In this document: positions 1,089 to 13,973 of the stretch, one piece after another
How the letters are laid out: every line of letters begins with the position of its first letter
Position numbering within the stretch: the first letter of the stretch is position 1
Source of the DNA: Acidobacteriota bacterium
GTDB taxonomy: Bacteria > Acidobacteriota > Aminicenantia > JBFLYD01
DNA: 33,878 nucleotides
Reading direction: 5' to 3'
Assembly: GCA_040756905.1 (NCBI GenBank)
Contig: JBFLYD010000052.1
Coordinates: 1 to 33,878 of the forward strand
The notes under the pieces: generated by a model
Told to the model about the DNA's origin: nothing
What the model saw: the letters and a program-made list of their open reading frames with translations, nothing else
Databases searched by the model: none
Made by a program: the position numbers and the translations under genes

Positions 1089-3518
1089 ATGAATCCAAAA
1101 AAAATTTTTTATCTATTCTTGGCATCACTATTATTGATTTTATGCCTCATAAATATCTTTCACATGAAAAATAGAGCTGACCTTCCTTTTGAATACAGAA
1201 GCTATAATGGAAAAATAATAATATCCACTATAAGTTTATCTTCAAAAGAGGTCGGACTGAAAGAAAATGACGTTTTATTAAAAATTAATGAATTTCCCGT
1301 CAAAAAAATACCCCATATAGAATTTGCTTTAAATTACAAAAAACCAGGAGATTTAATTTCGTTAAAAATTTTAAGAAATCAGCAAGAAAAAGAATTCTAT
1401 GTAGAATCTTCTCGTTACTACTCAAATCTATCCATCCTTGTTTTCTTCTCCGTAGGAATTGTTCTATGGATATTTGGCATTTTCATTTTTTTAATGAAAC
1501 CTGAGGAAAAACCAGCAGAAATTATTTTCTTCAATCTTCTATGCTTCTCTTCAACTATTATGATCTCAGCTACCAACTTGGGTACAATACCTTTTCCCTG
1601 GGTTGATTTAATTTTGAGAGTTATCTTTCTAATCACATATTCATTAACCCCTGCTATTTTTTTACATTTTTCATTCATTTTCCCAAAAGAAAAAGCTTTT
1701 AAGAATAAATTACTTCTTTACATTCCAGGCATCCTTTTTGTCTTGAATTTTCAATTATTTTTTCTGCATGCATTTTTTAAAAAGTCCATATTCTATTTTT
1801 ATAATTTTCATTACCCTTTTCCTTATTTCAGATTTTATGTAGTTCTCTTTACAATGATAGGAATATTTAATTTTATCAGGACATTCATAAAATCAACATC
1901 AGGAGAAGAAAAAGATAAAATAAGATGGATATTATGGGGAATAGTGTTTAGTGTTGCTCCATTTATTCTGTTGTGGATGATTCCTAAAGCAATCCTTGAT
2001 TCTCCAATAATAAAGGAAGAAGTCGCAGAGTTTTTTTTCATATTGATACCTGTTTCCTTTCTCATCTCAATAGTTAAATACAAATTGTTCGATATTGAAC
2101 TTATCATCAAAAAAAGTTTGATATATTCATCATTGACTTTTTCTGTAATAATCCTTTACTTTACATTGATAGAAATTATTCAGTACCTATTCAATTTGGA
2201 AGCTCTAAAAAAAATTAATTTGATAAGAATAATGGTAATTCTTATTATCGCAGCTCTGTTTAACCCGATAAGAGAGAAAATTCAGAATTTAATCGACAGG
2301 ATGTTCTACAGAATACCTTTTGATTATAGAAAAATAGTAAGGGAGTTTACAGCGGAAATGCATAAATCATTATCAATGCAGGATTTAGTCTCGGTCCTAC
2401 TGATGAAAATTAATAGAGCGTTATTTATAGAGGGCGCATCAGTATATATTTATGATTCTAACTCAAAAAAATACAGAAAAGTTAGAAGTATTGGAACTCA
2501 TAAATCCTTTGAGGATAATTTTCATTTTGAATTTTCAGGTTCAAGGATACTGGCGATAAAAGGTAGAGCTGAAGAGATAGAAGAATTAGATTTTTCAAAA
2601 GAAAAGGAAATTGAAAAAGCTGGGTTTGAAATCTTAGCTCAGTTTCCTTTTACTCATAAAGAGCTTCGTGGAGTTATTGGATTAGGAAGGAAAAAATCTG
2701 AAAAGTTATATTCAAAAAAAGACCTTGAATTTATCCTCACTATCTCTGAAGAAGCCTCTATAGGAATAGAAAGATTAAAGCTTCAAGAAGAAGTGATTTT
2801 AGAAAGGCTCGAGAAAGAAAAGCTTGAGGAAATAAACAGGTTAAAAAGCGAATTTGTATCCACAGTCTCCCATGAACTTCGCTCTCCAATGACCTCAATA
2901 AGAGGATTCGCTGAAATGTTGCAAATAGGAAAGAAAATAGACAAAGAAAAAAGAGATGAATATCTTGATATCATTATAGAAGAAAGTGAAAGGCTGTCGA
3001 GATTAATAGAAAATATTCTCGACATAAGTAAAATAGAGGAAGGAGTAAAAAAATATTATTTTGACAAGCTTAATCTTAAAGATTTAATAGAACGAACTTT
3101 AAGTTCAATGGAGTTTCAATTTAAAAAGTCAGGGTTTAAAATAAATAAAAATATTTCAGAAAAAATTCCTCTTATAAATGGGGATTGTGATGCATTAACT
3201 CAGGTTTTAATAAATCTGTTAAATAACTCTATTAAATATTCTTCTGATAGAAAAGAAATAACGGTAAATTTAAAAGAGAATAAAGATTATCTCATCGTTG
3301 AGATTGAAGATAAAGGCATTGGAATTCCAGAAGATAAGCTTGATAAAATCTTTGATAAGTATTATAGAATTGAAGATGAAGAATTTAAAAAAGTTAAAGG
3401 TCTGGGATTGGGGTTATCAGTTGTAAGGCACATAATAGAAGCTCATAACGGAGATATAAAAGTAGAAAGTAAAGTTGGAATTGGAACAAAATTTTCTGTA
3501 TATCTGCCAAAACAATGA
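1089..3518 (+). CDS. Membrane sensor histidine kinase: PDZ, multi-TM, GAF, HisKA, HATPase
   Basis: A membrane histidine kinase of 809 residues. An N-terminal signal anchor (about 5-25) is followed by a PDZ-like segment with a 'GLKENDVLLKINE' signature (about 35-105). Next come about seven or eight hydrophobic helices (about 115-395), a GAF-like region (about 425-560) and a short coiled linker. The HisKA box is SHELRSPMTS with the phospho-accepting His at residue 595. The ATPase domain follows, with an N box (NLLNNSIKYS), a G1 box (EDKGIGIPEDKLDKIF) and GLGLGLSVVRHI. The stop overlaps the next ATG by four bases (ATGA), so kinase and regulator are co-translated partners. The signal sensed is unknown. 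The extracytoplasmic PDZ suggests it binds a peptide or a protein partner at the envelope, which is an inference. Confidence 0.93.
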   Translation: MNPKKIFYLFLASLLLILCLINIFHMKNRADLPFEYRSYNGKIIISTISLSSKEVGLKENDVLLKINEFPVKKIPHIEFALNYKKPGDLISLKILRNQQEKEFYVESSRYYSNLSILVFFSVGIVLWIFGIFIFLMKPEEKPAEIIFFNLLCFSSTIMISATNLGTIPFPWVDLILRVIFLITYSLTPAIFLHFSFIFPKEKAFKNKLLLYIPGILFVLNFQLFFLHAFFKKSIFYFYNFHYPFPYFRFYVVLFTMIGIFNFIRTFIKSTSGEEKDKIRWILWGIVFSVAPFILLWMIPKAILDSPIIKEEVAEFFFILIPVSFLISIVKYKLFDIELIIKKSLIYSSLTFSVIILYFTLIEIIQYLFNLEALKKINLIRIMVILIIAALFNPIREKIQNLIDRMFYRIPFDYRKIVREFTAEMHKSLSMQDLVSVLLMKINRALFIEGASVYIYDSNSKKYRKVRSIGTHKSFEDNFHFEFSGSRILAIKGRAEEIEELDFSKEKEIEKAGFEILAQFPFTHKELRGVIGLGRKKSEKLYSKKDLEFILTISEEASIGIERLKLQEEVILERLEKEKLEEINRLKSEFVSTVSHELRSPMTSIRGFAEMLQIGKKIDKEKRDEYLDIIIEESERLSRLIENILDISKIEEGVKKYYFDKLNLKDLIERTLSSMEFQFKKSGFKINKNISEKIPLINGDCDALTQVLINLLNNSIKYSSDRKEITVNLKENKDYLIVEIEDKGIGIPEDKLDKIFDKYYRIEDEEFKKVKGLGLGLSVVRHIIEAHNGDIKVESKVGIGTKFSVYLPKQ

Positions 3519-4198
3519 AAAAAATATTAATTGTTGAAGATGATTTGAACCTTTTTAAAAACTTGAAGGTTCATTTAGAGAATGAATATTTTGATGTCAT
3601 TCATGCAGAAGATGGAGAAAAATGTCTTGAACTCGTAAAAAGAGAAAAAGTTGATTTAATAATTTTAGATATAGTTCTACCAAAGATAAGTGGGTTTGAT
3701 GTAATGAAGAAAATAAGAGAATCTGGGATTGCCACATCGGTTCTTATGCTAAGCGGAAAGAGAAAAAATGAGATGGATAAAGTTTTAGGCCTTGAGATAG
3801 GAGCAGATGATTATGTTACAAAACCATTCAGCACAAGAGAATTGGTCGCAAGAGTTAAAGCTATTTTAAGAAGGAAAATACCAAAAAAAATTGAACTGGA
3901 CGAATACAGCTTCAGAAATATTCATCTTGATTTTAAAAAACAAGAAGCTTATAAAGCAGGAAAGAAAATTAAATTATCTCCGAAAGAATTTAAAATTTTG
4001 AAATTTTTTGTTTCTCATGAAGGAGAAGTCGCGACAAGAGATATGTTGTTGAATGAAGTATGGGGATATGAAGTATTTCCCACAACAAGAACGGTTGATA
4101 ATTTCATTCTTTCCTTAAGAAAAAAGATTGAAGATAATCCCTCTAAACCAAAACACATTTTAACCATCCATGGCTCTGGATATAAATTTATAAAATAA
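3515..4198 (+). CDS. OmpR/PhoB-family response regulator
   Basis: A DNA-binding response regulator of 227 residues, the usual length for the OmpR/PhoB class. The receiver domain (1-115) has the acidic pair D9/D10, the phospho-acceptor D52 (LIILDIVLP), a late Thr/Ser position near 'VLMLSG' and the conserved Lys in 'VTKPFS'. The C-terminal winged helix (about 130-225) shows LSPKEFKILKFF, LLNEVWG, RTVDNFILSLRKKIE and a closing GSGYKFIK, all class-typical. It begins inside the stop region of the histidine kinase upstream and is presumably its cognate output. Its targets cannot be read from the sequence. The lipid operon starting about 400 bases downstream is a candidate only because it is next in line. 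Confidence 0.95.
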   Translation: MKKILIVEDDLNLFKNLKVHLENEYFDVIHAEDGEKCLELVKREKVDLIILDIVLPKISGFDVMKKIRESGIATSVLMLSGKRKNEMDKVLGLEIGADDYVTKPFSTRELVARVKAILRRKIPKKIELDEYSFRNIHLDFKKQEAYKAGKKIKLSPKEFKILKFFVSHEGEVATRDMLLNEVWGYEVFPTTRTVDNFILSLRKKIEDNPSKPKHILTIHGSGYKFIK

Positions 4199-4240: not shown

Positions 4241-4427
4241 AGTGTGCTGTAACATAAATTTTTTTACAAACATTAGATTTCTCAGAAAGCACACTGAAGG
4301 GGTATGGGGAAGGTCACTTCCCCATGTCTGGGGGGTGCTCAGCGAAGCGTCTAAGGAGGGCTTGCCCCCATAGGGAAAGTGTCGTGTCACATCAAAATAA
4401 CAAAAGATATTTAAGTGACACGACACT
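4241..4427. repeat. Palindromic MITE-like element E
   Basis: The outer ends form an imperfect inverted repeat: AGTGTGCTGTAACATAA at 4241-4257 against the complement of 4411-4427, 13 of 17 positions alike. Inside are two smaller perfect hairpins: AGTGTGCT/AGCACACT (4241-4248 with 4288-4295) and AGTGTCGTGTCAC with its complement (4378-4390 with 4415-4427). Between them is a G-rich stretch (4297-4375) that stands out from the AT-rich surroundings. It occupies most of the 402-base gap between the response regulator and the lipid kinase, with no coding capacity. The 13-bp hairpin could also act in transcription, but it has no clean U-tract. Confidence 0.55.
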
Positions 4428-4600
4428 AAATCAATTTTTTAGCTTATTTTTTATGACAATATTTTTACAATATATCAACAATTTCATGACAATTTTCTGT
4501 ATCAGAAGAATTAAATTTTATATGAAATGATTGAATGGATACTAAAATGATGGAACAAAAATTAAAAAAAATGCCTGATTTAAAATTTCAGGAAAGGGGA

Positions 4601-5548
4601 ATGTCTTTTAAGAAGACGCATGTGATTATAAACCCTGCTTCAGCTGGAGGAAAAACTAGAATCAGGCAAACCCAAATCATTAATGAGCTTGATAAACATT
4701 TCGGAAATAGATATTCCATCTTTATTACTCAAAGACCCTTAGATGCTACCTTTTCAGTTCGAAGAGCAATCATTGAAGGAAGTGAGCTAATCATTGCAAT
4801 TGGCGGAGATGGAACTATTCAGGAAACTGTAAATGGGTTTTTCTTCGATGGATATCTAATAAATCCTGCTTGTCAACTTGGCATCATCAACAGTGGAACT
4901 GGACACGGTTTTGCTCAGAGTTTGGGCTTGCCGTCAGAGATCAAAAAGCAACTTGAAGTTATTTGTAGAGGAGAAAGTCGTTTTATTGATGTTGGAAGAG
5001 TTGTTTTCTCTAACAAAGATGGAATAGCAATTGAGCGTTTTTTTATAAATGAATGTCAAGCAGGAATAGGAGGAGAAGTAGTCAAATGCGTCCAATCAAA
5101 GCACAAAAAATTTGGCGGACTCATTGTTTTTGGTTTAACTGCATTCTCAAAGGTTTTTAGTTATCCTGGCCATCTGATTGCAGCAACTATAGATAATAGT
5201 TTTCATACGATGCAGAAACTTATCGGAATCGCTATTGCTAATGGTAAATTCACTGGAGGTGGCATGAATTTGGCTCCTCAAGCTAAGGCCGATGATGGAT
5301 TGCTCGATATCCTTTTGATTCATGAGCAACCAATCCTTCAGCGTCTATGGAATTTCCCAAAGATATATTCTGGACAACACATCCTTTCATCGAAGTTCAG
5401 TTATTTTCAAGGAAAAAGTATAACTCTCAATGCTTCTGAAAGGGTATTTGTTGAAGCAGATGGTGAACTGCTTGGTTTCCTACCCTGTACTGTTGAAGTA
5501 ATTCCCTCTGCATTAAAGGTCAGGGTTTATTCTCAAGAGAAAGGATGA
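4601..5548 (+). CDS. Diacylglycerol/sphingoid-type lipid kinase (DAGK catalytic domain, YegS/LCB5 family)
   Basis: A soluble lipid kinase of about 315 residues. The nucleotide-binding motif is GGDGT (residues 68-72), preceded by the family's first strand and loop VIINPASAGG. Later family blocks are 'GIINSGTGHGFAQSLGLP', 'RFFINECQAGIGGEVV' (normally the substrate loop) and a C-terminal beta domain ending in VEADGELLG, as in YegS, DgkB and sphingosine kinases. I chose the ATG at 4601 because AGGAAAGGGG lies just before it. An in-frame ATG at 4535 would add 22 residues but has no ribosome-binding site. It is the first gene of a block with spacings of only -20 to +22 bases. By family it phosphorylates diacylglycerol, a long-chain base or a related lipid alcohol; the exact substrate is unknown. 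Confidence 0.88.
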   Translation: MSFKKTHVIINPASAGGKTRIRQTQIINELDKHFGNRYSIFITQRPLDATFSVRRAIIEGSELIIAIGGDGTIQETVNGFFFDGYLINPACQLGIINSGTGHGFAQSLGLPSEIKKQLEVICRGESRFIDVGRVVFSNKDGIAIERFFINECQAGIGGEVVKCVQSKHKKFGGLIVFGLTAFSKVFSYPGHLIAATIDNSFHTMQKLIGIAIANGKFTGGGMNLAPQAKADDGLLDILLIHEQPILQRLWNFPKIYSGQHILSSKFSYFQGKSITLNASERVFVEADGELLGFLPCTVEVIPSALKVRVYSQEKG

Positions 5549-5554
5549 GAGAAA

Positions 5555-7438
5555 ATGCAAAAATTTTTTCTGAAAATTCTGAAATTTGAATTTGAGGCTC
5601 GTATTTTTATCTCATTTATCATAGTAATTTTTGTTTCCGCTCTTTCTTTTTCAATGTTTTATCACTCTCCATCTAACGCTATCATAATTGGTAAAATAAT
5701 TGGGTCTTCTGCTGAAACATCTATGGCCGCTGGTTATTTAGTTGTGGCGTTCTTCATGTTATTGGCATCAATTCTCAGATCATGGTCGGGAAGTATATTA
5801 ACTTCCCAGAGAATGATGTCATTCCGCGTCCAAGTTGACAAACTGATGACAGCAGGTCCTTATCTCCTCGTTCGAAACCCTATTTACCTTGCAGACCTTA
5901 TAGCATTCTGCGGCTTTGCACTCTGCCTTACACCTATCGGTATTTTTCTACCAGTTCTTCTTTTACTCCATTATACTCAACTTATAAAGTATGAAGAGGT
6001 ATCTCTAATAGAACAATTTGGGAAAAAGTATTTGGATTACAAAACACGTATCCCCCGATTGATACCGAATTATAAAAGTGCTTGTAACTTGATTTCTGCG
6101 TTTAAAGAGTTTGAGATAAATCGAGATGGGTTAAGACACAATGCTCTCTATCTGCTTTTCATCCCTGGATTTATTTTAGCGGCTTTCACTCAAGAAATTC
6201 TCTTTGCTGTTATTGTTGGAATTCCTGCTGTATTCGATTGGGCCATAATTCACACAAAAATCGGATTATCCAAGAAACCTAAGAAAGGGGATTCTGGAAA
6301 AAAGTATATCTTTAATGCTGATCAGGAGAACAATAAGATATTTAAAGAGATAATTTATGCCCAATGCTGGGAAGATCCTCAAATAGACCGTGAAGCATTT
6401 AAAATCACCTCTGACGATGTAGTTTTTTCAATTACTTCAGGTGGATGCAATACTTTAACTTTTTTACTTGACAATCCACGCAAAGTCATTGCTCTTGATA
6501 TTAACCCCCATCAGAATTTTTTACTGGATTTAAAGATTGCAGCGTTTAAGAATCTTTCATACGAAGAATTGCTCGAATTTACAGGACTGAGAGAATCTAA
6601 ACGTCGTCTTCTATTATACAAGCAAATTCGTTCCTCTCTCCAAGTGGACAGTATCAGATATTGGGATAATCAATTGAAGAAAATAAAACAGGGTATCATT
6701 CACTGCGGTCGTTATGAAGGCTATATGCGATTGCTGAAAACAATAATAGTTACTCCAATCATGAAGAGACAGTTAATTGAGAAATTTTTTGAAACTGAAG
6801 ATTCAGCAGCAAGAGCAAAGCTTTTCCATCAGAGATGGGAAAATATCTGGTGGTGGCTACTCACCAGAATCATGCTCAGCCGCACAGTAATGACTCTGTT
6901 TTTTGATAGAGCATTCTTTGTTTACCTCGATGAAAAATTTTCATTCGGAAAGCATTTTGCAAAGAAAGTTGAGCGAGCGCTCACCCAATTGCCCATGAAG
7001 GAAAATTACTTTCTCTCCTATATTTTGCTCAGAAGATTTTACAGCGAAGAACATCTTCCAGTTTATCTGAGACAGACTAATTATGACATCATCCGCAGCC
7101 GAGTAGATCGAATCGAAATAGTTACGGATAGCTGCGAGCATTTTTTTACTACATTGTCTGATTCTTGTATTTCAAAATTTAACTTCTCAAACATTTTTGA
7201 GTGGATTTCAACCAAAGCCTATGAAAACTTACTTAAAGAGACGATTCGAGTAGCAAAGGATAGAGCTGTTATAACTTATCGAAATTTGCTTGTGTTCCGT
7301 GAACATCCTGTTTCTCTTGACGAGAAAATCCATTCTCTAAAACCTTTAGTAAAATTTCTTCATGAGCAAGACCTTTCATTCATTTATAACAACTACGTTG
7401 TTGAAGAAATTCATAAAGGAGAAGCAAATGACATATAA
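5555..7438 (+). CDS. Fusion: PEMT/ICMT-type membrane methyltransferase + BtaA-type aminocarboxypropyl transferase (DUF3419)
   Basis: A 627-residue protein that joins two SAM-dependent modules. Residues about 15-170 are membrane helices of the phospholipid/isoprenylcysteine methyltransferase type, with the diagnostic GPYLLVRNPIYLA (101-113), an EE pair (147-148), FGKKYLDYKTRIPRLIP and a further hydrophobic pair (about 200-225). Residues about 250-620 are a BtaA-like domain: YAQCWEDPQID, the SAM-binding turn SGGCN (295-299), the acidic residue of ALDINPHQ (D315) and HCGRYEGYM. BtaA enzymes move the 3-amino-3-carboxypropyl group of SAM onto diacylglycerol, releasing methylthioadenosine. A second enzyme (BtaB) then N-methylates the product to the betaine lipid DGTS. 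Here a different, membrane-type methyltransferase is fused in front and could play the BtaB role; that is an inference. The start lies 6 bases after the lipid kinase stop. Confidence 0.9.
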   Translation: MQKFFLKILKFEFEARIFISFIIVIFVSALSFSMFYHSPSNAIIIGKIIGSSAETSMAAGYLVVAFFMLLASILRSWSGSILTSQRMMSFRVQVDKLMTAGPYLLVRNPIYLADLIAFCGFALCLTPIGIFLPVLLLLHYTQLIKYEEVSLIEQFGKKYLDYKTRIPRLIPNYKSACNLISAFKEFEINRDGLRHNALYLLFIPGFILAAFTQEILFAVIVGIPAVFDWAIIHTKIGLSKKPKKGDSGKKYIFNADQENNKIFKEIIYAQCWEDPQIDREAFKITSDDVVFSITSGGCNTLTFLLDNPRKVIALDINPHQNFLLDLKIAAFKNLSYEELLEFTGLRESKRRLLLYKQIRSSLQVDSIRYWDNQLKKIKQGIIHCGRYEGYMRLLKTIIVTPIMKRQLIEKFFETEDSAARAKLFHQRWENIWWWLLTRIMLSRTVMTLFFDRAFFVYLDEKFSFGKHFAKKVERALTQLPMKENYFLSYILLRRFYSEEHLPVYLRQTNYDIIRSRVDRIEIVTDSCEHFFTTLSDSCISKFNFSNIFEWISTKAYENLLKETIRVAKDRAVITYRNLLVFREHPVSLDEKIHSLKPLVKFLHEQDLSFIYNNYVVEEIHKGEANDI

Positions 7439-8540
7439 AGTTATGCCCGTATCCAATTCTCGACAGATGAAGGATTTTCTCATGCTGCCGTTTGTCATTT
7501 ATCGTCATGATCCTAACTGGGTTCCTCCAATTACTTCAGAAGTGAGACGCATTATTAACGAAAAGATCAATCCATACTTCAACAACGCACAAATAAAATT
7601 TTTTGTCTGTTATAAAAATAATACTGCTGTTTCTCGCACTGCCATCATTATTAACAGGCTCCACCATGAAAAATTTGGAGTTAATGCAGTTTTCTTTGGC
7701 TTCTTTGAATCTATAAATGATCCCGATGCTGTTCGCTACCTATTTGATGAAGCAGAAAGCTATTGTAAGAGTCAAGGGAGTGCGTTGCTCGAAGGGCCAT
7801 TTAACCCAAATCACTACTCAGAGTTAGGGCTGCAAGTAAATAAATTTGGGACTCCACCAACTTTTTTCCAACCATACAATCCTGAATATTATACAGACTT
7901 ACTTGAAGCAACAGGTTTTCATGTTTCATCCCGATTTCACTCCTGGAAGAATGAGAACATCAGGGAATATATTCTCGATCATTATGGAATCCAAACAGCT
8001 CTTGAGGTAGATGGCTACACTGTCCGCTCTTTTTCAATGAAAAACATCAGAGCAGAACTTGAAATCATCCGTGAGGTAAACAACAATGCCTTCTCATCTA
8101 ACTGGCATTTTCTGCCTTTGTCCAGGGAAGAGTATCTATTTTCTTCAAAATTTCTGAGTTTGATAACCTATCCAGAGCTAATCAAGATTGTGGAGCATAA
8201 TGGTTCTCCTGCAGGAGTGCTTATCTGTGTTCTGGATATTAATCCATTGCTTAAAAAAATGAATGGAAAGGTAGGACCTATTAAATACATCAGGTTTTTG
8301 TATGAGAGAAGGAAAATCAGAAAGCTTATCATTTATTCTGTGGGTATTAAAAAGGAATATCAGCATACGCCTGTTTTCCAGCTAATTTTCAATGCATTCT
8401 GTCAGATTATTCTGAATTATAATGTCTTAGAAACAACCTGGTTATCGGAAGAAAATATTCCTGCAGTAAAAGCAACTGATCGTCTTGGGTTAAAACCTGA
8501 TAAACAGTTTGTTATCTATGAAAAATATCTGGACGGATAA
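7428..8540 (+). CDS. YghO-like acyltransferase (GNAT-fold family)
   Basis: A 370-residue protein of the YghO-like group. The N-terminal signature is FVIYRHDPNWVPP with NPYFNNAQIKFFVCYKN, followed by 'GFFES' and a block EGPFNPNHYSELGLQVN that recurs in this family. A GNAT-like C-terminal half contains IIYSVGIKKEYQHTPVF and ends TDRLGLKPDKQFVIYEK. I take the ATG at 7428, preceded by AAAGGAGAAGC, rather than the upstream in-frame ATG at 7362. This overlaps the previous gene by 11 bases and indicates translational coupling. The family's reaction is poorly defined; the fold suggests acyl transfer from an acyl-CoA or acyl-ACP to an amine. In this operon the acceptor could be the amino lipid or its precursor, which is speculative. 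Confidence 0.78.
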   Translation: MTYKVMPVSNSRQMKDFLMLPFVIYRHDPNWVPPITSEVRRIINEKINPYFNNAQIKFFVCYKNNTAVSRTAIIINRLHHEKFGVNAVFFGFFESINDPDAVRYLFDEAESYCKSQGSALLEGPFNPNHYSELGLQVNKFGTPPTFFQPYNPEYYTDLLEATGFHVSSRFHSWKNENIREYILDHYGIQTALEVDGYTVRSFSMKNIRAELEIIREVNNNAFSSNWHFLPLSREEYLFSSKFLSLITYPELIKIVEHNGSPAGVLICVLDINPLLKKMNGKVGPIKYIRFLYERRKIRKLIIYSVGIKKEYQHTPVFQLIFNAFCQIILNYNVLETTWLSEENIPAVKATDRLGLKPDKQFVIYEKYLDG

Positions 8541-8562: not shown

Positions 8563-9981
8563 ATGACAAAAGTTTTTAATCCTCAAGATTGGGGGCTCCA
8601 AATGAGCCCCAGGGGTGAGCTAATGGTTGGGGATTATAATACTGTTACCCTTGCCAAAGAATATGGCACTCCTCTCCATGTAGTAAATGAACACCGCTTG
8701 GAAGAAACTGCAAAGAAGTTTCGGGAAAGTGCCAGTTCCATGTACCCGGGGAAAACATCAGTCCATTATGCATTCAAGTGTAATTCTGTACCAGTAGTTA
8801 TACAAACGATTCGTCGCGCCGGACTAAAAGCTGAAGTTATGAGCGAATTTGAATTGAATTTGGCTTTCCACATAGGTTATGAAGGGGAGGAGATTGTTGT
8901 TAATGGACCATGCAAAACTGATTCCTTTCTGCGCCAATGTCTTAATAGGCGTGTCCGCTTCATCATTATCGATTCCCTCGACGAACTTCAAGCACTAAAT
9001 CAAATATGTATATCAGAAGAAAAAAACGCAAACATCTTGCTTAGAATCAATCCTGATTACATTCCTAAAGGTATGAATCAAGGCTCCGCAACAGGAAGCC
9101 GAAAAGGCTGTGCTTTCGGGCTCGATCTTAAAGGCGGAGAGGTCACTACTTGCTTAAATTTATTAAAAGAAATGAAACGAATTCATTTTCATGGATTCCA
9201 CTTTCATATTGGTACTGGGATAAGAGACCCAAGAGAGTATTCAAAAGCACTTAAATGTCTAAGTTTACTTCTTGATTGTGCTTATTCTTCAGGGCTGATG
9301 GTCAAAATTTTGGATATTGGCGGAGGATTTGCCTCAATGACAACGCGAGAACTAACAAACCGTGAGCTTCTGGTTTATCAAGGATTAGAGCGCTTACCCT
9401 CTGGTGTTGATAAAAGCAATAATGCTACCTTCGAAGATTTTGCAAGAGAAATATCTAATGCTATCTTAAAATATTTTCCCCCAGACAAATTGCCAGAAAT
9501 CTTGTATGAACCAGGAAGATGTATTGCAAGTCCTAACCAGTTTTTACTACTCACTGTTCACCGAGTAAAAGAACGTCCTAAAATTCGAAAGTGGCTCATC
9601 ACTGATGGTGGTTTAGGAACGGTAACCATGCCTACTTTCTATGAATATCATGAGGTCTTTTTATGCAACGATGTTACACGACCTCGAATAGAAAAGGTAA
9701 CTATTGCAGGTCCAGTCTGCTTTGCTTCTGATGTTGTATATCGAAATAAACTTATGCCTCAGGTTCATCCTGGAGAAGTTATCGCAATCATGGATAGCGG
9801 AGCCTATTTCACAGCCCTGGAATCATCCTTTGGTTTTGCTCATCCAGCAATTATCTCCATCAACCTCTCTACTCACCGCTTGATTAGGAGGGCAGAAACA
9901 TTTGAGGATATGGTTTGTAGGGATATATTTAATAATTCAATTAATGGAAGGGAGGAAAAAAATGAAATTTGCAATCATTAA
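8563..9981 (+). CDS. Fold-type III PLP-dependent decarboxylase (diaminopimelate/ornithine decarboxylase superfamily)
   Basis: A 472-residue alanine-racemase-fold decarboxylase, longer than typical LysA (about 420). The PLP Lys is K72 in YAFKCNS. HFHIGTG (213-219), DIGGGF (glycines 253-255) and EPGR (316-319) bind the cofactor phosphate and ring. The C-terminal sheet has GPVCFASD, with the Cys-x-x-x-Asp that completes the active site across the dimer, and DSGAYFTALESSFG. The last block differs from the usual LysA pattern, and an insertion after GGGF (about 257-285) is also unusual, so the substrate need not be diaminopimelate. A strong ribosome-binding site (AAAGGAGAAAGG) precedes the ATG, 22 bases after the acyltransferase. 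Possible substrates are a basic or carboxyl-bearing amino acid or, given the neighbours, a homoserine-type lipid head group. Confidence 0.87.
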   Translation: MTKVFNPQDWGLQMSPRGELMVGDYNTVTLAKEYGTPLHVVNEHRLEETAKKFRESASSMYPGKTSVHYAFKCNSVPVVIQTIRRAGLKAEVMSEFELNLAFHIGYEGEEIVVNGPCKTDSFLRQCLNRRVRFIIIDSLDELQALNQICISEEKNANILLRINPDYIPKGMNQGSATGSRKGCAFGLDLKGGEVTTCLNLLKEMKRIHFHGFHFHIGTGIRDPREYSKALKCLSLLLDCAYSSGLMVKILDIGGGFASMTTRELTNRELLVYQGLERLPSGVDKSNNATFEDFAREISNAILKYFPPDKLPEILYEPGRCIASPNQFLLLTVHRVKERPKIRKWLITDGGLGTVTMPTFYEYHEVFLCNDVTRPRIEKVTIAGPVCFASDVVYRNKLMPQVHPGEVIAIMDSGAYFTALESSFGFAHPAIISINLSTHRLIRRAETFEDMVCRDIFNNSINGREEKNEICNH

Positions 9982-11068
9982 AAATGGCATAAATCCACTT
10001 CGAGATAAAATCGCTGAGGAGATTATACAAAAGTGTCTTCAGCATGGCCATGAAATTTCTACTTCGGAGAATGGTATTCAGTTTGTTCTGAACCTGACCC
10101 AAATAGAATCTCCGCAATTTTTTCGTAGACATTCCCAATCAATTCTTGTCTTTTCGATTGTTGCAACTGAAAGCGAAGGTAAGGATTTACGCTCCGTCTG
10201 TTATACAACTCTCGTCCGGACCCTCTCCAACATTTTAATATGTGTTACACCCAATAAAAATTCTCTTTCTTCTGAAGGAAACAGTCCATGCGAAATTTAT
10301 TTCACCACACCAGAGGCAGGATTCTATCATTTTCCTTTCGATCCAGAAGAAGTTTATCGTTGCATTATTCCAATTGCAGGAGCGCACTTTGCAATGGGGA
10401 ACCAGTTCTTCACAGACTTACCCCCTCGCTACTGGAAAACTTCTCCAATTGTTGAAAAAATCAAAGAATACGGAAAAGAGCTTGATAGTCTCGGTGTGCT
10501 TCCCGCACCATTTCCCCTCAGAGAAGTTCTATCGGAAGAAAACATTCAACATGTTTACAATCTCTTTGAATTAAAAGGTATAAGCTATGGAAATCTCAGC
10601 GCCCGTGAACATATTCCAGAACTTGGCAAGGCGACTTTCTGGATGACCGCCCGAGGAATAAATAAAGCTAAAATTTCAAAAATAGGCAAAGATGTGTTGT
10701 TAGTAAAAGGCTTTGATTATGAGCAGGGCAAAGCATTGGTAAGCGTTCCACCTGACTTCGACCCAAAAGCAAGGGTATCAGTTGATGCTGTTGAGCATGA
10801 GCTCATCTATCGAACATTTCCTGAAGTTGGCGCAATTGTCCATGTGCATGCATGGATGGATGGAGTTCTCTGTACCCGACAGAATTATCCATGTGGAACA
10901 CAGGAGCTTGCCGAAGAAGTTGTGAACCTGCTTCGCAAAACGGACAATCCATTGCAGACCGCTGTTGGTCTTAAAAATCACGGATTGACCATAACAGGGC
11001 CAAGCCTTGAAGAAATCTTTAAACGGATTCGTGGAAAGCTTCTCACTGAAGTTCTAATGTTTAAATAA
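9962..11068 (+). CDS. Class II aldolase/adducin-family protein with an extra N-terminal domain
   Basis: A 368-residue protein in two parts. The C-terminal half (about 180-368) is a class II aldolase/adducin domain: YGNLSAR, WMTARG, the zinc ligands HVH (H294, H296) and a third His in GLKNHGLTITG (H340). The N-terminal part (about 1-165) is not a domain I recognise; it has alternating strands and helices (NGINPLRDKIAEEII, QFVLNL) like a small Rossmann-type domain. Family members include L-fuculose-phosphate aldolase, ribulose-phosphate epimerase and MtnB dehydratase, so the reaction is open. The start at 9962 follows GGAAGGGAGG and overlaps the decarboxylase by 20 bases. Because a BtaA-type enzyme releases methylthioadenosine, a role in salvaging that by-product is conceivable but unproven. 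Confidence 0.82.
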   Translation: MKFAIIKNGINPLRDKIAEEIIQKCLQHGHEISTSENGIQFVLNLTQIESPQFFRRHSQSILVFSIVATESEGKDLRSVCYTTLVRTLSNILICVTPNKNSLSSEGNSPCEIYFTTPEAGFYHFPFDPEEVYRCIIPIAGAHFAMGNQFFTDLPPRYWKTSPIVEKIKEYGKELDSLGVLPAPFPLREVLSEENIQHVYNLFELKGISYGNLSAREHIPELGKATFWMTARGINKAKISKIGKDVLLVKGFDYEQGKALVSVPPDFDPKARVSVDAVEHELIYRTFPEVGAIVHVHAWMDGVLCTRQNYPCGTQELAEEVVNLLRKTDNPLQTAVGLKNHGLTITGPSLEEIFKRIRGKLLTEVLMFK

Positions 11069-11078
11069 AGGAGCTTCT

Positions 11079-12185
11079 ATGGAAGTATATGCTATTAGAA
11101 CCCTGAGAAATCAGCCATTGCGACTTGCACTCACAATCGGTGGTGTTGCCCTCTGTGTAGTGCTTATGTTTTTTCTTTTGTCTGTCTATAAGGGAGTTGC
11201 TGATGGCTCAGTAGAATATATAAAGCAGAATAAAACTGACTTATGGGTCCTTCAGCGCAACGCAACTAATATCCTTCGTGGCTCATCTATACTTTCAACT
11301 TTCCAAGGAGAGAGAATCCGACAGATTTCGGGTGTTAAATCTGTTTCTCCGGTTCTTCTCCTTTTATCCACAATCAAGAAAGATGATAAGGTTCGAACAG
11401 TATTTTTGACTGGATTTGAGCCAGAGGAAGGCATTGGAGGTCCACCTAATCTTGTTGCTGGCCATACTGTTCTCAGAGATGATGAGATTGTTCTTGATAA
11501 ATCATTTGCCGCAAAATTTAAGTTTAAAGTGGGTGATCGAGTTGAAATACAGAATAATTCATTAAAAGTAGTTGGTATCAGCGGAGGAACTAATGCCTTT
11601 GTTATCCAGTATGCTTTTGTAACGCTTCGCTTTGCTCAGAGACTTATTGGATTTCCAGGTATTGTGAGCTGCTACTTAGTTAAGGTTAAAGATAGAAGCA
11701 CTCTTGCAGAAATTGCCGAGAAGATTCGCAAAGAATTACCTGAGGTTGAAGTTTATTACCATGAGATATTTTTGGAGAATAACATTAATGAGATGGAATC
11801 AGGTTTTCTCCCTCTCCTTTACACAGTGGCTGCAATTGGGGCTGTAGTCCTGACCGTCATTTTGAGTCTGCTTCTCTCTGTCAACATTCTTGAAAGAAGA
11901 AAAGATTTTGCTGTATTAAAAACACTTGGTTCGCCAAAAGGATTTCTATGGCGGCTGATAATCGATCAGGCTTTACTAATATCATTTGCGGCAAGTATCG
12001 TTGCTCTTATTGTCTTTTTTCCATTGGTTTATGTGATCGAAAAAATTTCCCCAGAGGTTAGCACGAAGTCTTCGGTTGAGCAAATTATAGTTGTTGTAAT
12101 TGTTGCTGTAGTGATGAGTCTTATAAGCTCATTAATATCAATTCAAAAGTTAAGGCATATTTATCTGCTGGAGGCATTCAAATGA
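11079..12185 (+). CDS. FtsX/MacB-type ABC transporter permease (DevC-like)
   Basis: A 368-residue permease with the four-helix FtsX/MacB plan. One N-terminal helix (about 15-38) is followed by a large periplasmic domain (about 40-240, with VSPVLL, LTGFEPEEGIGGPP and VGDRVEIQNNSLKVVGISGG). Three C-terminal helices come next (about 250-275, 300-325, 335-355), with the coupling segment 'LERRKDFAVLKTLGSPKGFLWRL' between them. It begins 10 bases after the aldolase with AAAGGAG as ribosome-binding site and overlaps the ATPase by four bases (ATGA). Proteins of this class extract lipids or lipoproteins, drive efflux or export small molecules through mechanotransmission. In this block the cargo may be the lipid made by the preceding genes. 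Confidence 0.9.
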   Translation: MEVYAIRTLRNQPLRLALTIGGVALCVVLMFFLLSVYKGVADGSVEYIKQNKTDLWVLQRNATNILRGSSILSTFQGERIRQISGVKSVSPVLLLLSTIKKDDKVRTVFLTGFEPEEGIGGPPNLVAGHTVLRDDEIVLDKSFAAKFKFKVGDRVEIQNNSLKVVGISGGTNAFVIQYAFVTLRFAQRLIGFPGIVSCYLVKVKDRSTLAEIAEKIRKELPEVEVYYHEIFLENNINEMESGFLPLLYTVAAIGAVVLTVILSLLLSVNILERRKDFAVLKTLGSPKGFLWRLIIDQALLISFAASIVALIVFFPLVYVIEKISPEVSTKSSVEQIIVVVIVAVVMSLISSLISIQKLRHIYLLEAFK

Positions 12186-12871
12186 AAGGATTAGAAAAGA
12201 CATCGTGTGTTGTTCAATTAGTTAATGTCACGAAAATATTTGGTAGTAATGAACACAAGACCGTAGCAGTGCATCAGATTTCCCTTCGTGCTTCCTCAGG
12301 CGAATTGTTGTTATTCTTAGGCCCCAGTGGAAGTGGAAAGACAACTTTATTGACATTAATTGCAGGACTGCTAAAACCAACTTCTGGCATTATATCGCTC
12401 TTCGGCAGGAATATTGAATCATGCTCCCCCAGAGAATTACAAAAACTTCGAGCTTTAAGAATTGGCTTTATCTTTCAAACTTTTCTGCTGATCGATTCCC
12501 TAACAGCCCTGGAAAATGTAGAAGTAGTTCTTCGTTTTACCGGTAGGCCAAAGAGAGAAGCTCATTGGCAAGCAATGCAACTTCTACAGCAATTTCATGT
12601 AGAACATCTTGCCTGGAAATTTCCTCCTTCATTAAGTCAGGGAGAAAAGCAGCGAGTTGCAATAGCTCGCGCGGTTGCAAATGGTGCTGACCTTATCCTT
12701 GCTGATGAACCAACTGGCAGCCTGGAATCAAAACAAGGTTTTGAAATCATCCGGCTTATCCATGCATATGCGAAAGAGCAAAACAAGTGCGTAATCGTCG
12801 CAAGTCACGACCTTCGAATTGTCGAGTTTGCCGACAGGATAATCCGGTTAGAAGATGGGAAACAAAAATAA
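12182..12871 (+). CDS. ABC transporter ATP-binding protein (LolD/MacB class)
   Basis: A 229-residue ATPase. Walker A is GPSGSGKT (47-54), the Q-loop is in GFIFQTFLLID, the signature is LSQGEKQRVAIARA (Gly-Glu-Lys replaces the common Gly-Gly-Gln), Walker B is LILADEPTG with SLES as the D-loop, and the switch His is in VASHD. The length and motifs fit the LolD/FtsE/MacB class that pairs with FtsX-type permeases. It is coupled to the permease through an ATGA overlap and ends right before the outer-membrane barrel gene. Confidence 0.95.
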   Translation: MKGLEKTSCVVQLVNVTKIFGSNEHKTVAVHQISLRASSGELLLFLGPSGSGKTTLLTLIAGLLKPTSGIISLFGRNIESCSPRELQKLRALRIGFIFQTFLLIDSLTALENVEVVLRFTGRPKREAHWQAMQLLQQFHVEHLAWKFPPSLSQGEKQRVAIARAVANGADLILADEPTGSLESKQGFEIIRLIHAYAKEQNKCVIVASHDLRIVEFADRIIRLEDGKQK

Positions 12872-12872
12872 A

Positions 12873-13973
12873 ATGGAAATTAATAAGAAATATTTTCTTA
12901 TTTTTTTAATTATCTTATTTTCTCATTCAATTTCATTTTTGTTGCCTCAAGAAATATTGAAAAATACAAAAAAAATCACATGGAGCGCTTTTCCGATTTT
13001 AATGTATGATTCTGATATTGGGTTTGGGTATGGAGGGAAAGGGATAATAAAAAATATCTTCAAAAAAGACGAATCCTTTGATTTAATTTTGTTTAACTCG
13101 ACTAAAGGTGAACATTGGTATGTTTTTACTTTCTCAATTCCTGATTTTGAAATCAGACAGAGAAAAGCCTACCCTCTCTCATTTGACCTGAAGATCGAAT
13201 ATGACAGAATCTTAAAGGACAATTTTTTTGGGTTGGGAATCGATTCAAAAAAAGCAGACCATATAATTTTTACAAAAGAATGGACAACTGTTCAATTCAC
13301 TTTAGGAAGAGGTTTTACAGAGAACTTTTTTGCTGAGATAAGCTACAATTTAAAAAATATAAGCTATCTTAACATTGAAAAAGATAACAGGGGATTGACA
13401 GATATTTTGAAAGAAGTTGGCTCTCGATCTTCTCCATTTATCTCCTTTAATATACGATACGATACATCTGATAGCCAGATTCATCCACTTGAAGGATTAA
13501 GACTTGCTCTCATTTTTGACCTATCCAATAAATCATTTGGAAACAAGAATTTTAGCTTTAATAAAATTACTTTAGATTTTAGAAAATATACATCAATTTT
13601 TAAGAGAAAAGGTGTGTTTGCTTTTCGGTTATTATTCCAAACAATCAACGGCTCAAAGATCCCTATTTTTGAATATGGAACTCTTGGTGGCGGCTCAACT
13701 ATGAGAGGCTTTATTTTAAATAGATTTGCTGATAAGAAAAGAATTCTTTCGAATATAGAATACAGATTTCCGATATGGAAAAAAATCGGAGGAAACATTT
13801 TGTTGGATGCAGGGAATTTAAGTCCAAATTTAAGAGAAATTAACTGGAACAAATGGAAATACAATTTAGGTGCAGGCTTGAGATATTATCTTCAAAATTT
13901 TGTTGTAAGGTTTGATATGGGGTTAAGTCCGGAAGGCACCAGGATATATTTCAACTTTGGACATTTATTTTAA
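12873..13973 (+). CDS. Omp85-type outer-membrane beta-barrel protein (BamA/TamA surface-antigen domain, no POTRA)
   Basis: About 366 residues. A signal peptide (Lys-rich start, then FLIFLIILFSHSISFLL) leads directly into amphipathic beta strands with no room for POTRA domains. The family mark is the (V/M)RGF motif in GGGSTMRGF, followed by a strand ending in EYRFPI; the chain ends in NFGHLF, with the terminal Phe typical of barrels inserted by Bam. An ATG at 12873 sits one base after the ABC ATPase stop. An in-frame ATG at 12855 (six more residues, overlapping the ATPase) is equally possible, and neither has a strong ribosome-binding site. Third-base usage is more AT-rich than in the lipid genes. 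The role may be as an outer-membrane partner of the exporter or an independent surface protein. Confidence 0.82.
   Translation: MEINKKYFLIFLIILFSHSISFLLPQEILKNTKKITWSAFPILMYDSDIGFGYGGKGIIKNIFKKDESFDLILFNSTKGEHWYVFTFSIPDFEIRQRKAYPLSFDLKIEYDRILKDNFFGLGIDSKKADHIIFTKEWTTVQFTLGRGFTENFFAEISYNLKNISYLNIEKDNRGLTDILKEVGSRSSPFISFNIRYDTSDSQIHPLEGLRLALIFDLSNKSFGNKNFSFNKITLDFRKYTSIFKRKGVFAFRLLFQTINGSKIPIFEYGTLGGGSTMRGFILNRFADKKRILSNIEYRFPIWKKIGGNILLDAGNLSPNLREINWNKWKYNLGAGLRYYLQNFVVRFDMGLSPEGTRIYFNFGHLF

Follow-up and report, generated by a model that had tools for sequence, protein, structure and literature searches.

A PEMT-BtaA fusion protein within a predicted seven-gene operon shared by several phyla of uncultured bacteria

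A single gene in a 33,878-nucleotide stretch of DNA from an Acidobacteriota bacterium (hereafter, the window) encodes a membrane methyltransferase domain of the PEMT family joined to a BtaA-type (DUF3419) transferase domain, and comparison of related loci indicates that this fusion protein is the core of a conserved seven-gene operon present in several phyla of uncultured bacteria (Table 1). The enzyme families involved are known; the fusion and the operon appear to be new, and in the open-access literature that we searched, where four papers mention DUF3419, we found no description of DUF3419 or BtaA together with these partners. Our leading interpretation, at about even confidence, is that the operon produces an exported, SAM-derived aminolipid other than DGTS.

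Table 1. Predicted genes of the operon and its upstream neighbors in the window, with the regions of the fusion protein
Feature	Position	Strand	Remarks
Sensor histidine kinase	1089..3518	+	
OmpR/PhoB-type response regulator	3515..4198	+	pairs with the sensor histidine kinase
YegS/DAGK-family lipid kinase	4535..5548	+	conserved gene upstream of the fusion
PEMT-BtaA fusion protein	5555..7438	+	627 aa; ATG start; AlphaFold2 model, pLDDT 81.6
PEMT (PF04191) membrane methyltransferase domain	5750..6028	+	residues 66-158; R107, N108, P109, Y111 and E147 invariant
Conserved post-PEMT extension	6128..6265	+	residues 192-237; hydrophobic 197-236
Interdomain linker	6263..6340	+	residues 237-262; pLDDT <50
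DUF3419/BtaA domain	6335..7288	+	residues 261-578
Tandem-GNAT N-acyltransferase	7428..8540	+	first bases (from 7428) shared with the fusion gene; model pLDDT 93.3
Fold-III PLP decarboxylase, LysA paralogue	8563..9981	+	CFASD for CESxD, MPTFY for RPxxY
Class II aldolase-family protein	9962..11068	+	extra N-terminal domain of ~190 aa; HVH and NHG conserved
MacB/DevC-type ABC permease	11079..12185	+	
ABC ATPase (DevA/LolD-like)	12182..12871	+	overlaps the permease gene by 4 nt

The initial annotation read two domains in one open frame, and the Pfam search that it proposed bears this out: within a single unbroken frame, the PEMT profile is matched with E=3.4e-8 (34.3 bits, the cut-off being 25) and the DUF3419 profile PF11899 with E=6.3e-68 (profile positions 4-335 of 385), whereas the ICMT profile PF04140, also named there, scores 17.1 bits, under its cut-off of 24. 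Both PEMT and DUF3419 are matched by all 18 full-length fused members, compared with 8 of the 18 for ICMT, and the separate PEMT genes of three split loci (L054, L057 and L062) match PF04191 as well. All the motifs quoted in that annotation are present, namely, GPYLLVRNPIYLA (residues 101-113) and the downstream EE (147-148) in the PEMT half, and YAQCWEDP (268-275), SGGCN (295-299) and GRYEGY (385-390) in the BtaA half. The EE pair, however, is strictly conserved in its first residue only: E147, like the four other invariant PEMT residues listed in Table 1, is found in each of the 23 fused and split members, whereas E148 varies (the L062 protein has YEQ). In the BtaA domain, Y18, A19, W22, E23, D24, I43, S45, G47, N49 and D65 (domain numbering) are invariant, including in the true btaA-btaB locus L116 that served as the comparator for the BtaA core residues.

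The N-terminal part of the fusion protein contains four hydrophobic stretches (residues 8-39, 52-82, 108-144 and 197-236) and shares its membrane segments and the RNPIY...E motif with the PEMT/ICMT superfamily, which includes PE methyltransferase, ICMT and LmtA; compared with these proteins, the fusion adds the BtaA domain and a conserved extension (DG.RHN, DWA..H) in which G192, R194, N196, D228, W229, H233 and G237 are invariant. Other Acidobacteriota encode standalone PEMT proteins (e.g., L034:8632-9465) that are about 30% identical to the fusion and, like it, have a KFEFR-type motif near the N-terminus. In the AlphaFold2 model, which is ligand-free, the disordered linker separates two confidently predicted parts, and residues 84-95 have pLDDT below 50; a Foldseek search with this model returned generic Rossmann SAM folds only, none of them at E<=0.001, and the top 50 hits did not include ICMT.

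The PEMT domain matches the ICMT structure 4a2n in sequence over residues 94-172 (E=0.0088), and the best NCBIfam matches of the N-terminal part are LmtA (E=5.8e-8) followed by isoprenylcysteine methyltransferase (8.9e-8), both far below the respective cut-offs. LmtA is the lipid A 1-phosphate methyltransferase. Thus, the domain could be an O-methyltransferase that acts either on a phosphate placed by the kinase, like LmtA, or on a carboxylate, like ICMT, while the GNAT acylates the BtaA-derived amine; the combination of kinase and GNAT in the operon fits such phosphate capping plus N-acylation. Given that the LmtA and ICMT matches are both weak, and that PEMT outscores ICMT in Pfam and is matched by more of the members, we consider this scheme unlikely. 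By analogy with the conversion of PE to PC, we favor an amine as the methyl acceptor, at about even confidence, over a phosphate or a carboxylate, to each of which we assign a low probability.

A single scan of ~85,000 species genomes yielded 79 loci; fusion-type loci, some of them fragmentary, account for 25. The survey of this architecture, another check that had been suggested, shows PEMT and BtaA in one frame in 20 loci (the window, L037-L053, L055 and L059, with L051 and L059 ending at contig edges), and as two adjacent genes in the same operon position in five (L054, L056, L057, L058 and L062); in L054 and L057, the split genes overlap by 4 nt (ATGA). With 20 loci encoding it, we rejected the possibility that the fusion is an assembly or frameshift artefact. 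All related loci come from metagenome-assembled genomes which, by their record titles, represent eight or nine phyla: Aminicenantes/Acidobacteriota, Bacteroidota, WOR-3, Deinococcota, Gemmatimonadota, Ignavibacteriota, Kryptoniota and Planctomycetota, plus one genome titled Nitrospirota (L059). The last of these may be misbinned because its BtaA domain groups within Aminicenantes in the tree. The full-length fusion is present in 7 of the 142 genomes of the class to which the window belongs and in 2 of the 198 genomes in a phylum-wide sample. The BtaA domains of the fused and split forms comprise one clade (97/99 support) to which the other DUF3419 proteins do not belong. In this tree, the btaB-linked comparator sits on a long branch, so its exact placement is unsure. 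A Spirochaetales locus (L060) with only a BtaA fragment was left out.

As far as the contigs reach, the gene order in the fusion loci is recurrent: DAGK, PEMT-BtaA, GNAT, decarboxylase, aldolase, ABC permease and ABC ATPase. Among 26 loci, the kinase was detected in 23, the GNAT in 24, the decarboxylase in 23, the aldolase in 22, the permease in 15 and the ATPase in 14, the ABC genes not being recognisable in several Bacteroidales loci and in L044. Neighboring genes of the operon in the window overlap or lie at most ~25 bases apart, and in L045, the decarboxylase and the aldolase are encoded in one 839-aa frame. The histidine kinase and OmpR/PhoB-type regulator genes are located 5' of the operon in the window, L054 and L057, and in L040, a sensor histidine kinase homologue lies downstream of the operon on the opposite strand. 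In the window, the operon is preceded by a gap of 336 bases that contains a 21-nt inverted repeat (86%; loop of 8 nt) at positions 4378-4427 and a perfect hairpin of 9 nt at 4304-4325. A gene for an Omp85-family protein at 12855-13973 overlaps the ABC ATPase gene at its end; in the other loci, a homologue adjoining the operon was not found. Near the start of the window, a short frame (463-876) matches only the beginning of DUF4070 and is possibly a remnant of a longer gene.

Among the closest known counterparts of the fusion is the BtaA-BtaB system of Rhodobacter and Sinorhizobium, which makes DGTS. The two systems have in common the BtaA catalytic domain, with the YAQ.WED, S.G.N and related motifs, and a SAM-dependent methyltransferase partner. 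In BtaA-BtaB, this partner is a soluble class I enzyme, whereas here it is a membrane PEMT-type domain at the N-terminus of the fusion; furthermore, the operon adds the GNAT, the decarboxylase, the aldolase and the ABC exporter. Eukaryotic BTA1 combines a BtaA-type domain with a soluble BtaB-type methyltransferase in one polypeptide; BTA1 thus resembles the fusion in being a single chain but differs in its soluble methyltransferase domain. Two BtaB probes (from L116 and L118) found no match at E<=0.01 in the 25 fusion-type loci, including the window. The idea that the fusion embodies a third solution for betaine lipid synthesis is accordingly upheld with respect to the partner, given that a membrane PEMT, with no soluble BtaB, consistently accompanies this BtaA clade, but the DGTS outcome is unsupported, the GNAT, the remodelled decarboxylase, the aldolase and, mostly, the ABC exporter being conserved along with the fusion.

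It might still be that the fusion makes DGTS on its own, with the BtaA domain forming diacylglyceryl-homoserine and the PEMT domain trimethylating it in place of BtaB, while the other operon genes serve another purpose. The conserved BtaA core residues, the assignment of PF04191 to the phospholipid methyltransferases and the adjoining diacylglycerol-kinase-family gene are all compatible with this scenario. Nevertheless, we deem it improbable: the GNAT, decarboxylase and aldolase genes have no role in DGTS synthesis, yet they are conserved together with the fusion gene and packed closely with it, the BtaA domain is 24-27% identical to its rhizobial homologues, and its clade is distinct from btaB-linked BtaA, although the comparator is a long branch.

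The operon decarboxylase belongs to the LysA/Orn-Arg fold-III family and, like LysA, is a predicted PLP enzyme with the conserved Lys, EPGR and Cys; all 21 members retain Lys72, Cys386 and Tyr415. The substrate pocket, in contrast, is altered in all of these. The residue following the Cys is Phe, compared with Glu in the aligned LysA structures (CESSD, CETGD and CESGD), and the Arg of the RPxxY-type motif is replaced by Met, Leu or Thr. In LysA, the Glu of CESxD and the Arg of RPxxY bind the amino and carboxyl groups at the second end of DAP; the loss of both points to a substrate that has only one amino-acid end, for example, a homoserine ether. The window protein scores 256.4 bits against the NCBIfam lysA model, below the cut-off of 297.9, whereas a separate, canonical LysA encoded in the same genome (on C17) scores 511.7 bits and retains CESGD and RPVLY. 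The presence of this second enzyme, together with the lost specificity residues, led us to reject the notion that the operon gene is the housekeeping LysA.

The GNAT is modeled as a tandem GNAT fold, with a Foldseek match to the tandem GNAT 2wpw (E=1.2e-15). The aldolase keeps HVH and NHG but has Asp in the position where an aligned class II relative has Glu. Homologues of the aldolase are encoded beside DAGK and/or AMP-ligase genes, without BtaA, in Acidobacteriota (L141-L147 and L152). This pairing of full-length homologues with lipid kinase and/or AMP-ligase genes in BtaA-free clusters disfavors a role in MTA salvage (of the MtnB or DHAP-shunt type) and makes it more likely that the aldolase is a lipid-backbone enzyme.

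From the family assignments and motifs, we infer the following reactions. The fusion protein would be bifunctional, drawing on SAM for both of its reactions at the membrane. The BtaA domain, judging by its family, most likely attaches the 3-amino-3-carboxypropyl group of SAM at a lipid hydroxyl, with release of MTA, although the acceptor may be a non-lipid; with a second SAM as the donor, the PEMT domain would methylate the same lipid. The decarboxylase most likely strips the carboxylate from the group added by BtaA, so that an aminopropyl head group remains; the GNAT would acylate an amine, the kinase and the aldolase would act on the lipid backbone, and the ABC pair would export the product. 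These assignments constrain one another. PLP-dependent decarboxylation requires a free primary amine and thus cannot come after N-trimethylation; on the BtaA product, it would have to precede full N-methylation. A methyl ester would block decarboxylation, so that the two are incompatible on the same carboxylate. Likewise, if the GNAT acylates the BtaA-derived amine, the PEMT domain cannot fully methylate that amine, in which case the methyl group would be placed elsewhere, on a phosphate or a carboxylate, or the amine would be partly methylated; this conflict implies that the step order or one of the assignments is wrong, or else that the acceptors differ.

Most standalone BtaA homologues that we found are encoded in a different conserved cluster that consists of genes for a UbiA-like-motif membrane protein, a PPDK-like protein, BtaA, a CTP-kinase-like membrane protein, a GNAT and an AMP-ligase; the PPDK-like and AMP-ligase genes were named by Pfam, and the two membrane proteins by sequence motif, with no Pfam match above the cut-off. 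This cluster occurs in Cyanobacteriota, Planctomycetota, Verrucomicrobiota, Pseudomonadota and Chloroflexota (L063, L070, L084, L090 and others), and BtaB was not found near it at the sensitivity used. Probes for the PEMT, decarboxylase and aldolase of the fusion operon found no match in the standalone-BtaA loci. A fusion operon and another BtaA cluster are both present in one Trueperaceae chromosome (L044 and L090) and in one Aminicenantia genome (G404), hence the systems are probably not interchangeable. In two further loci, whose genes were named directly from the sequence, an exporter gene (RND-like in L148, MacB-type in L151) comes before the BtaA homologue and a GNAT-like gene of ~340 aa comes after it.

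The prevalence of homologues in this other context, with PPDK-like, AMP-ligase and GNAT genes, and the putative nature of the DUF3419 acceptor outside btaAB raise the possibility that the operon makes a soluble metabolite, formed by transfer of the aminocarboxypropyl group to a non-lipid acceptor and exported by the MacB-type pump. This appears very unlikely in view of the membrane PEMT domain fused to BtaA, the adjoining YegS/DAGK lipid kinase and the DevA/LolD-like exporter, of a kind that moves lipids and lipoproteins; we retain a lipid as the expected product. Five BtaA loci (L064, L069, L101, L114 and L149) contain a phosphatidylserine decarboxylase homologue adjoining the GNAT gene, and L069 additionally has the ABC pair of the operon (58% and 65% identity); phosphatidylserine decarboxylase probes found no match in the fusion loci. 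BtaA therefore recurs alongside a GNAT and some type of decarboxylase; this correlation provides the main support for decarboxylation after BtaA, although the phosphatidylserine decarboxylase homologues could be ordinary PE-making enzymes. We tentatively propose, as a doubtful but specific extension, that the operon makes a new class of exported membrane lipids, in which an aminopropyl ether, formed by decarboxylation of the aminocarboxypropyl group from SAM, is subsequently methylated, acylated or both. The fusion protein would be the committing enzyme, and in the related BtaA clusters, the phosphatidylserine decarboxylase homologue would perform the decarboxylation.

If true, the aminopropyl-ether route would run parallel to the PS-to-PE-to-PC pathway, with an ether head group as its basis. 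Because the operon, which is compact and shared by several phyla of uncultured bacteria, is small enough for laboratory expression, its product is directly testable. DUF3419 is usually taken as a sign of betaine lipids; here, one clade of the family and a much larger set of its relatives belong to gene clusters unlike those for betaine-lipid synthesis, and predictions of lipids from a DUF3419 gene in metagenomes may therefore be wrong.
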